Assembly: GCA_944327845.1 (NCBI GenBank)
Contig: CALVHN010000001.1
Location: 135,149-199,148 of the forward strand
Reading direction: 5' to 3'
Length of the DNA stretch: 64,000 nt
Source: an uncultured Bacilli bacterium
GTDB lineage: Bacteria; Bacillota_I; Bacilli_A; RFN20; CAG-826
A program made the position numbers and the translations under genes. A model generated the notes under the pieces. That model was not told the origin of the DNA and searched no databases. It was given only the letters and a program-made list of their open reading frames with translations. Below are positions 16,886 through 57,660 of the stretch, one piece after another; position 1 is the first letter of the stretch; each line of letters starts with the position of its first letter.

Positions 16886-16896
16886 TTTGGTAATTT

Positions 16897-16921
16897 TTCC
16901 TCTTTTCTTGCATCTTGTTAT
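16897..16921 (+). promoter_or_regulatory. Shared upstream block A (putative promoter or operator of peptide-radC)
   Basis: The block ends with TTGCATCTTGTTAT (16908-16921), identical to 41063-41076. The flanking TTTTC.TCTTT at its left is shared too. The block ends 15 bases before the peptide ATG, in the place expected for a promoter. It does not fit TTGACA/TATAAT, so an alternative sigma factor or activator is possible. Inference from two copies only. Confidence 0.5.
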
Positions 16922-16936
16922 ATGAAAGGAGGAGAT

Positions 16937-17119
16937 ATGGAAAAAGTACCATTAACTAATGAAGAATTAAATAACATTAAACCTGGTGAAGCGATTACTT
17001 TAGCCACAGTTATGGCTATCCTTGCTATAGCAATTGTATCAGTAATTGTTTATAAGTTGTTTATAACCGGGGATGGAAAAGTGAAATTGCCTGGTGGTTA
17101 TCAATTTGAGTGGAAATGA
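16937..17119 (+). CDS. Small single-pass membrane peptide with double-glycine-leader-like N-terminus
   Basis: Sixty residues; I do not recognise a named family. The N-terminus PLTNEELNNIKPG (residues 5-17) looks like a double-glycine secretion leader (consensus L..EEL..I.GG) with Pro-Gly in place of Gly-Gly. A strong hydrophobic helix follows at about 19-42 (ITLATVMAILAIAIVSVIVY), then a short tail with LPGGYQFEWK. It could be a bacteriocin-like or signalling peptide, or simply a small membrane protein. I chose ATG 16937 because AAAGGAGGAG precedes it closely; an ATG at 16922 adds five residues but overlaps that site. The stop overlaps the radC start (ATGA), so the two are translationally coupled. 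No dedicated exporter is visible nearby. Confidence 0.7.
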   Translation: MEKVPLTNEELNNIKPGEAITLATVMAILAIAIVSVIVYKLFITGDGKVKLPGGYQFEWK

Positions 17120-17790
17120 CAATTCAAATTAAAGATTTAGATGAATCTTCTAGGCCAAGAGAATTAGCTTTAAATAATGGAATTGATAGTTTATCTAATG
17201 TTAATTTATTAGCTCTAATTTTAGGAAGTGGAATTAAAGGAAAATCGGTAATTGATATATCAAATGAAATATTAAAAAAATATTCAAATTTGTCCGAGCT
17301 TACTAATGTTAATTATAATGAATTAAAAAAGATAAAAGGTCTTTCCAACGCCCAATGTTTAAAGTTAATCGCTTGCTTTGAATTGTGCAAAAGAATTATA
17401 AGAAATGTTAATGAATTAAATAGAAGTATTGAACCAAGAAATATATATAAAGAATTTATTAATGAGTTCGGTATTAATAAAAATGAAACTTTATATCTAT
17501 ACATTTATAAAAATAATATAAGAATTTCCAAAAATAAAATTGTCACAAGTAGCAAAATTTCTGTTATTTTGAGTTTTGATGATATATCAGAAAGAATATC
17601 TCAAAATAAAGGAGATTCATTTTTAATTGTTCATACTCATTTTTCTGAAAATTCTGAACCTTCAAACGAAGACATTCTAGCGACTAATCAATTGATTGAA
17701 ATTTCCAAAAATTTGAAATGTAATTTAATCGATCATATTATTGTTTCTAAATTCAATTATTTTAGCTTTAAAGAGAATGGTTTGATTTAA
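17116..17790 (+). CDS. radC: RadC/UPF0758 family JAB-domain protein
   Basis: The N-terminal helix-hairpin-helix region (about residues 30-85, ILGSGIKGKS ... IKGLSNAQ) is followed by a JAMM metalloprotease-like domain with HTHFSENSEPSNED, matching the H-x-H...S-x-x-D metal site. The family usually reads HNHPSG here, so this copy is divergent around it. Function is unsettled. The old link to recombinational repair is doubtful, but radC belongs to late competence regulons in streptococci. The start is ATG 17116, overlapping the stop of the peptide gene; a GTG six bases earlier is not needed. Length is 224 residues. Expression is probably driven by the shared block at 16897. Confidence 0.9.
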   Translation: MTIQIKDLDESSRPRELALNNGIDSLSNVNLLALILGSGIKGKSVIDISNEILKKYSNLSELTNVNYNELKKIKGLSNAQCLKLIACFELCKRIIRNVNELNRSIEPRNIYKEFINEFGINKNETLYLYIYKNNIRISKNKIVTSSKISVILSFDDISERISQNKGDSFLIVHTHFSENSEPSNEDILATNQLIEISKNLKCNLIDHIIVSKFNYFSFKENGLI

Positions 17791-17830: not shown

Positions 17831-17925
17831 GCGTTGTAAATCATTAAATTTACAACCGCATTGAGAAGGTTTAAATCCAATTATAAATTGGTACCTTAAG
17901 AGCGAGTAATTTTATTTATTGATGG
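17831..17925 (+). promoter_or_regulatory. Ribosomal protein L21 leader RNA
   Basis: The structured leader contains a hairpin GTTGTAAAT (17833-17841) / ATTTACAAC (17848-17856). A second element is nested: AAGGT (17866-17870) pairs with ACCTT (17893-17897) around CCAATT/AATTGG (17877-17882 and 17886-17891). Position and layout fit the L21 leader family of Firmicutes, which controls rplU-rpmA by an autogenous mechanism. The assignment rests on context plus visible stems, without a covariance search. Confidence 0.7.
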
Positions 17926-41042: not shown

Positions 41043-41050
41043 TGGGAAAT

Positions 41051-41076
41051 TTTCTTCTTTAATTGCATCTTGTTAT
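41051..41076 (+). promoter_or_regulatory. Shared upstream block B (putative promoter or operator)
   Basis: It contains TTGCATCTTGTTAT at 41063-41076, identical to 16908-16921, with similar flanking TTTTC.TCTTT. It ends 16 bases before the ATG at 41093, the same geometry as copy A. Confidence 0.5.
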
Positions 41077-41092: not shown

Positions 41093-41587
41093 ATGAAAGA
41101 TGCAGATTGTTTAGAAGTTAAGGCTAAAGACGCGAATAAAAGATTAAAATCTTTTAATAAAAAAGAGGTGAAAGTGATTAACTTAATTTTAAGAAAAGGA
41201 GAAATTAGGAAATATGTAAAAAATTTAAACTTTTTTGGAGACTATAATCTTGGTTATTGTGTAATTTTAGATGATTCATATCTATTAAATGAAAAAGTAT
41301 TGATATGTCCATTGATTGAAATTAATGAGATTCAATTAAACAATATCTATATGAGCTTATCAGATATAAATGATCTCTTAATCGACGGGCATAAAATGGT
41401 TGCTTCGATATCTGATATAAAATTTATTAGTAAAAGAAAGTTTATAGAATATCTTGATAATGTAGATTTAAATGCACCGATAAAAGTTATTGATTTAGTT
41501 ATAGTTGCGAAAATTATTACAAATTATGCTAATATGCTTTCTAAAATTATTTTAAAAATTAAAAAAGAAAAAATCCTAACATGTTAA
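41093..41587 (+). CDS. Possible PemK/MazF-like protein
   Basis: The 164-residue protein has a basic N-terminus. A weak match to MazF/PemK folds can be laid out: LRKGEIRKYVKNL (like RGDVYFADL), GYCVILDDSYLLNEKVLICPLI (like RPVLVIQND...VIVAPIT), and HKMVASISDIKFISKRKF (like DSVILLEQIRTIDKQRL). The SEQGG catalytic loop is not preserved. No antitoxin gene is adjacent. The ATG at 41093 follows AGAGGTG; an in-frame TTG at 41063 lies inside the shared regulatory block and is rejected. Function unknown; MazF-like is a hypothesis. Confidence 0.4.
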   Translation: MKDADCLEVKAKDANKRLKSFNKKEVKVINLILRKGEIRKYVKNLNFFGDYNLGYCVILDDSYLLNEKVLICPLIEINEIQLNNIYMSLSDINDLLIDGHKMVASISDIKFISKRKFIEYLDNVDLNAPIKVIDLVIVAKIITNYANMLSKIILKIKKEKILTC

Positions 41588-56439: not shown

Positions 56440-57660
56440 TTAATAGTTTTCGTCAAGTTTTTTTCTTCTAGCAGCATTTTTAAGTTTTCTTTGTGCTTTA
56501 GCTTCTATTTGTCTAATACGTTCACGAGTAACACCAAATTCTTTACCTACTTCTTCAAGTGTTCTTTCGCGGTTGTCCTCAAGTCCTGAACGTAAAATAA
56601 TAACTCTTTGTTCACGATCTGTTAATTCGCCTAAAACACTATAAAGGGCTTCACGGCTTAATTTTTTATTTACATAATCTTTAGGTGATTCTGATTCTTT
56701 ATCTTCGACAAAATCTCCATAATGTGAATCTTCATCTTCACCAATTGGAGAATCTAAAGATGTTGGTTCTTGAGCAAATTTTAGATTTTTTCTAATTTCA
56801 TCTGGTGTCATTATGTAATCAAGTTTAGCTGCAATTTCTTCTGCAGTTGGTTCTCTTCCAATTTCTTGAACTAAAACGTTATGAGCACGATTAATTTTAT
56901 TAATTGTTTCAACAACATGGACAGGGATTCTAATTGTTCTAGCTTCATCAGCTATTGCCCTAGTTATAGATTGTTTAATCCACCAAGTTGCATAAGTTGA
57001 AAATTTGAAACCTTTTCTGTAATCAAATTTATCAACAGCTTTCATTAATCCAATATTACCATATTCAATTAAATCTAAAAATTGTAAACCTCTTCCAATA
57101 TATTTTTTTGCAATAGAAACAACTAATCTCAAATTAGAAGTAATTAATTTATCTTTAGCACGTTTATCCCCTTGTTCAATACGTTTAGCTAATTCTTGTT
57201 CTTCTTTTGCAGTTAAGAGTTTAACTTTTCCAATATCTTTTAAATATTGCTTAACAGTATCTTGTACTTTTGGTTCGGTTGGATCATAATCAGCAACATC
57301 ATTTTGTTCTAACTCTTCATCTTCATCAAGTTCCTTATTTTCATCTTCCTCATCAATAAGCATGTTAATATCTTCATCTTTTGGAAAATCTTCTTCTTCA
57401 GCATAAGTATCACTTTCAAGCTTATAACCTTTAGAAAGAAATTGTTTATAAATTTTGTCATAAGCTTCTGGAGTAATATCTAAAAAAGATGTAGCTTCTT
57501 CAAATTCATCTTGATTGATTGTTTTATCTTTTTTATGTTTTTCTTCAAAATCTTTAACAATTTTAGAAAACTTTATTTCATCAGTCTCCTCTTCTTCATC
57601 TTCATCATCAAGTAATTCATCATTTTCATAATCTTCATTTAATAAATCTTCTTTTTCCAT
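56440..57660 (-). CDS. rpoD: RNA polymerase housekeeping sigma factor SigA/RpoD
   Basis: Directs RNA polymerase to the TTGACA/TATAAT promoters seen across the window. It has a long acidic N-terminal region (about residues 1-130, many Asp/Glu), region 1.2 ([17 protein letters not shown]), region 2 ([37 protein letters not shown]), region 3, and region 4 with the helix-turn-helix [21 protein letters not shown]. Length is 406. A GGGGG-type ribosome site precedes the ATG. It follows dnaG, the classical dnaG-rpoD order. Confidence 0.96.

Follow-up and report, generated by a model that had tools for sequence, protein, structure and literature searches.

Promoters of a probable natural-competence regulon and a co-regulated Tad/VirB11-like pilus in an uncultured Bacilli genome

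The analyzed stretch of DNA (in the following the window) comprises 64,000 nucleotides of contig CALVHN010000001.1 from an uncultured Bacilli bacterium, whose genome (G000) consists of 1,135,094 bp on 9 contigs. Two loci within the window, approximately 24 kb apart, share a repeated upstream block. The features relevant for this study are:

16889–16921, plus strand: promoter copy 1, GGTAATTT (-35-like), N11 and TTGCATCTTGTTAT (-10-like), found by pattern search
16896–16905, plus strand: spacer pyrimidine tract with complementarity to the ribosome-binding site (duplex -16.4 kcal/mol)
16925–16934, plus strand: Shine-Dalgarno sequence AAAGGAGGAG, assigned by eye
16937–17119, plus strand: P0001, a 60-aa small membrane protein with a putative C39-type leader (L-12, T-11, E-8, L-7, I-4, G-1), based on its sequence and a homolog in G011, a genome of another genus
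17116–17790, plus strand: radC (PF04002, PF20582), its start overlapping the stop codon of P0001 (ATGA)
41044–41076, plus strand: promoter copy 2, GGGAAATT, N11 and TTGCATCTTGTTAT, found by pattern search
41093–41587, plus strand: P0002, 164 aa, regulon member, no family assigned in profile searches
56440–57660, minus strand: primary sigma factor RpoD, which gives one of the genome's two clear matches to sigma-70 region 2 and is not a candidate reader of the motif

The sequence TTGCATCTTGTTAT is found exactly at 16908–16921 and 41063–41076, with its copies ending 15 and 16 nt upstream of the ATGs at 16937 and 41093, respectively, precisely as described in the original prediction. That such an identity is unlikely to arise by chance was confirmed by an order-1 Markov model, yielding an expectation of 0.0023 in the window, where two copies exist, and of 0.041 in the whole genome, where six do. 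Alignment of the sites in G000 showed that the 14-mer, although correctly recognized, represents only one half of the element: an upstream half, GGKAAWTT (16889–16896 and 41044–41051 in the window), had been missed and is conserved at a spacing of always 11 nt, giving the two-part element GGKAAWTT-N11-TTGCATCTTGTTAT. The flank TTTTCnTCTTT, noticed early on as similar between the two loci, is indeed present in both window copies but absent from the general consensus; it was rejected as part of the recognition site, since the spacer differs among copies, and can be regarded as one form of the pyrimidine tract listed above. In total, six exact two-part sites were detected in G000 against an expectation of 6.5e-6, and allowing up to three mismatches resulted in 12 matches versus one in the reversed control. 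Eleven of these are located upstream of genes, the remaining one, inside dnaE, being spurious. The pattern searches thereby provided a list of 11 credible sites with the consensus TTTGGKAAWTTT-N10-TTGCATCTTGTTA, 10 of them close before a gene or operon (rpsF-ssb at a distance of ~130 nt, the other nine nearer). As long as just two copies were known, the block could have been a repeat of mobile or RNA-level nature, or a coincidental match devoid of promoter function. However, the copies have only the two blocks in common and differ in spacer and flanks, they precede functionally related genes, and a different motif precedes the same genes in G011, making this explanation extremely improbable; with six exact copies, 12 matches versus one in the control and the low expectation, it was rejected. 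Judged by its genomic context, the repeated block is a real promoter of at least 11 gene groups, nearly all of them dedicated to DNA uptake and recombination.

The genes downstream of the 11 sites comprise P0001-radC, P0002, comEA-comEC-holA, a VirB11/Tad-like pilus operon, comFA-comFC, rpsF-ssb-rpsR, a C39-peptidase membrane protein, an ABC-transporter pair, a stretch before recX, dprA, and recA, the latter directly following cinA. The late-competence targets of the streptococcal sigma factor SigX/ComX include ssb, recA, dprA, radC, comEA, and comFA, all of which were retrieved in our genome-wide scan as genes preceded by the element, instead of random hits inside genes. This gene set supports the earlier proposal of a competence-like regulon, and its composition makes it close to certain that the 11 sites define a late-competence regulon. 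An active sigma factor would jointly switch on the capture and import of DNA by means of the Tad-like pilus, ComEA, ComEC, ComFA, and ComFC, and the same switch would turn on protection and recombination by SSB, DprA, RecA, and RadC together with several accessory genes. Within the promoter, GGKAAWTT would act as the -35 element and TTGCATCTTGTTAT would contain the -10 element along with the melting region; transcription is proposed to start a few bases downstream of TTGCATCTTGTTAT, so that the leader would be very short and its ribosome site accessible.

Extension of the search toward related genomes, as envisaged in the original prediction, did not retrieve the same motif: no exact copy exists in the 56 other sampled genomes of the family, where the few matches with three mismatches remain at chance level, or among 84,980 GTDB genomes. 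As a consequence, upstream regions were compared within each genome, aligning the 62 nt upstream of dprA with the sequence that precedes the pilus ATPase gene in 49 genomes. The match within the same genome reached a mean of 26.75 compared with 19.80 for permuted pairs (sd 0.42; 0 of 5,000 permutations), while reversed and reverse-complemented decoys scored 20.2 and 20.7. The best matches, which vary in sequence between genomes, lie directly upstream of the ribosome site belonging to the pilus operon's first gene; about half of the family genomes show no clear match. For G011, ~796 kb of one contig were scanned with the genome's own motif, T[TA]GGAAAAA-N14-CGACTTATT, giving 11 matches with up to two mismatches versus one in the control. 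They precede the pilus operon, dprA, comEA, recA, comFA, rpsF-ssb, the homolog of the C39 protein (E=2e-13), a gene for an ImmA-like metallopeptidase (motif copy at 65,232), and a 163-aa protein of unknown function; of the other two, one has no adjacent gene and one is probably a chance match. The G011 homolog of the ABC pair is preceded by a match with three mismatches. For the motif copies at 501,803 and 734,015 no obvious adjacent gene was seen. With the same genes placed under a different motif, the comparison indicates that the regulon is conserved and the promoter sequence is not. This shared motif of G011 and the gene set of G000 together strengthen the initial assumption of an alternative-sigma promoter governing a competence-like regulon. 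The promoter sequence would drift jointly with its sigma factor, leading to a genus-specific spelling of the promoter, and a motif search trained on a single species would overlook the regulon in its relatives.

Which factor reads this promoter was approached by considering the sigma-like proteins encoded in G000. In Bacillota, sigH is positioned after rlmB in the neighborhood rlmB-(yacP)-sigH-nusG. In G000, the gene immediately following rlmB encodes a sigma-like protein of 220 aa, a protein of ~190–220 aa occupies this position in 28 of 30 inspected loci, and in G040 nusG follows the gene. The relatives' proteins share only ~18% identity with the G000 member, yet a profile of this family found the sigma-H factor 3mzy as the best solved structure (E=1e-18), and 15 of 23 aligned members match spore_sigH; the G000 member is not among them and, analyzed alone, stays below the NCBIfam cut-off (31.9 versus 42.9 bits). 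Compared with the sigma-H type (-35 AGGAWWT, -10 GAAT), the -35 of G000 fits and its -10 (GCATC) is far off, whereas the -10 of G011 (CGACT) comes close. Listeria sigma-H promoters display a -35 AAAGGATTT, an 11-nt spacer and a -10 GAGGAAT, 19–22 nt before comGA and comEA (PMC4754846), and the spacing of the element described here is 1–2 nt longer. An earlier study described sigH as a rapidly diverging gene (PMC3364868). Taking the fitting -35, the slightly longer spacing, the close -10 of G011 and the divergent own -10 together, a fast-evolving sigma-H/ComX-type factor encoded after rlmB is the probable reader of the motif.

Two other modes of recognition have to be considered. Competence in B. 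subtilis is driven by an activator, and TGTTAT, agreeing with TATAAT at four of six positions, could serve as a weak -10 of a primary-sigma promoter assisted by a ComK- or Sxy/CRP-like activator binding to GGKAAWTT. The invariant spacing, the -35/-10-like geometry, the conserved gene at the sigH position and the short leaders suit a sigma factor better, and we therefore regard an activator as unlikely. Apart from the candidate after rlmB, an ECF factor at G000:C4:56.7 kb is the one clear alternative sigma factor of G000 and, besides RpoD, its one clear sigma-70 region 2 match. GGAA-N16-TCT resembles some ECF promoters, but a separate motif, TTCCAATAA-N13-ATCGTATTTATGGTG, unlike the competence motif, is shared by the ECF gene and the second gene downstream of it. 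Given this different motif at its own locus, the ECF factor was rejected as the reader, a role we consider very unlikely. The locus itself (L032) contains genes for the ECF sigma factor, a membrane protein and a lipoprotein, the last being the second gene under the shared motif, and is probably an autoregulated ECF operon. We are rather confident that the repeated blocks are promoters which control a natural-competence regulon and are recognized by an alternative sigma factor of the sigma-H/ComX type.

Comparison with known systems shows common features as well as peculiarities. Among Bacillota that do not sporulate, the sigma-H competence regulons of Lactobacillus sakei (PMC3364868), Listeria (PMC4754846), and Staphylococcus aureus (PMC3486894) rely on a fast-diverging sigma-H family factor, as is probable here, and likewise target com operons and feature a G-rich -35 and a short distance to the start codon. 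In contrast to them, the regulon described here comprises no comG or comC and instead a Tad/VirB11-like pilus operon, includes recA, ssb, dprA, and radC, all under the promoter, and possesses a genus-specific promoter sequence. Streptococcal SigX/ComX with its cin-box TACGAATA shares the targets, and the -10 of G011 (TACGACTTATT) resembles the cin-box; the -10 of G000 (TTGCATCTTGTTAT) does not, a clear -35 exists here, and there is one chromosomal gene at the sigH position. With its genes constant and its promoter code varying across dozens of genera, the family offers a natural series for studying the co-evolution of a sigma factor and its promoters.

Many copies of the promoter contain a pyrimidine tract upstream of the -10 element. 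Duplexes of the spacers with their own ribosome region are stronger than those of swapped pairs, with 21 of 5,000 permutations being as strong in G000, 2 of 5,000 in G011, and 0 of 5,000 for dprA in 54 relatives; for dprA the pairing also exceeds that of shuffled sequences (p=2e-6). In RNA reading through from upstream, the tract would pair with the ribosome site, while RNA started at the competence promoter would exclude the upstream arm and leave the site free. We propose that read-through RNA consequently stays untranslated and promoter-started RNA is translated. Late genes of phage T4, whose ribosome site is hidden in early read-through RNA, follow the same principle of a promoter inside a hairpin masking the site exclusively in read-through RNA; here, in contrast, the setting is bacterial, an alternative sigma factor would be involved, and the effect is predicted from sequence.

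The co-regulated pilus operon encodes a VirB11/CpaF-like ATPase (family profile: VirB11 2.6e-30, CpaF 3e-24), two TadB/C-like membrane proteins, and a TadE-like protein. The TadE match is weak and the TadB/C matches are weak or absent; the gene order fits a Tad operon. The operons of relatives add a conserved small hydrophobic protein (MSEIKGQLLG...), which was not found after TadE in G000. The ATPase is present in 49 of 57 genomes, and named records carrying it are uncultured Bacilli, Bacillales, Erysipelotrichaceae, and Mollicutes MAGs from rumen and gut, e.g., Candidatus Onthovivens and Candidatus Fiminaster; a literature search on competence in this family returned no paper. At most one T2SSE ATPase per genome exceeds the cut-off, located at the Tad-like locus, with an extra copy in G016 only and none in G000, so that no ComGA-type ATPase other than the Tad-like one was found, G016 excepted. 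In addition, the A24 prepilin peptidase (PF01478, ComC) is absent in 57 of 57 genomes, with the same search being positive in 12 of 14 control genomes. Lacking both, these bacteria appear to have no ComG pilus available, which makes the co-regulated Tad-like machine the natural and best candidate for DNA uptake, probably replacing the usual Gram-positive uptake pilus. Flp/Tad-pilus-dependent transformation is known from Micrococcus luteus (PMC4322843) and Liberibacter (PMC8513845). In both, which belong to other phyla, a Tad-type machine serves DNA uptake, as is proposed here; the Tad-like pilus investigated here is connected through the promoter it has in common with the com genes, and A24 peptidase was not found. 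In G000 itself, the ATPase (L049:4522-5535, minus strand) reads GENESGKK where its relatives have GxTGSGKT, thereby missing the Thr/Ser of Walker A, and does not contain the conserved His and Arg-Gly motifs kept in most of eight relatives. As a consequence of these missing motor residues, the pilus of this particular species may be degraded.

The gene between promoter copy 1 and radC had been taken for a leader-peptide-like gene and turned out to encode a conserved small membrane protein instead, with a homolog upstream of radC in G011 (50% identical, E=2e-16) whose promoter has an intact -10 block and a weak -35. The leaders (LTNEELNNIKPG before E in P0001, LTFNEMKTIKPG before E in the homolog) both retain L-12, T-11, E-8, L/M-7, I-4, and G-1 of the double-glycine leader consensus, with Pro at -2. 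A C39 protein is a regulon member in both genera; in G000 it matches PF03412 (E=1.3e-19) and contains no ABC ATPase domain, and the catalytic Cys/His/Asp are kept in both. Its gene, conserved in G011, lies ~0.7 kb past the window end (L052:5619-6884, minus strand) with a competence promoter. We hypothesize that P0001 may be processed by the C39 protein and may serve as a pilin-like subunit, which would agree with the lack of an A24 peptidase; an equally simple reading sees P0001 as a secreted peptide or pheromone. Only tentatively, and with more doubt than conviction, do we combine these elements into one picture, in which a large family of uncultured gut Bacilli would take up DNA by a Tad/VirB11-like pilus and not ComG, a co-regulated C39 peptidase and not a prepilin peptidase would cleave the pilin-like P0001, and all of these genes would be driven by a sigma-H factor with a promoter code rewritten between genera. 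The analysis provides a sequence-only readout of competence in widespread uncultured rumen and gut Bacilli, proposes a candidate for the master sigma factor, and suggests an uptake pilus other than ComG that lacks the standard pilin peptidase.

Several regulon members and neighboring elements show further particularities. P0002, which at first impression appeared PemK-like, had no match in Pfam, NCBIfam, and PHROG searches and no BLAST similarity to the 163-aa regulon protein of G011, and the PemK assignment was dropped accordingly; a single-sequence structure model was uninformative (pLDDT 33). The gene comFA (L050:606-640; G000:C3:69.6 kb) has no ATG, GTG, or TTG start in place, its frame apparently beginning at an ATT after the ribosome site. 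At the recX site (L054:752-1063; G000:C5:18251 onward), a ribosome-site-like sequence is followed by an immediate stop and ~270 nt free of open reading frames before recX; this stretch may encode a small RNA or represent the remains of a gene, and its predicted RNA fold is little more stable than those of shuffled sequences (z -1.6). Downstream of radC, at 17844–17917 on the plus strand, a ribosomal protein L21 leader (RF00559) represents the only Rfam gathering match of the window.
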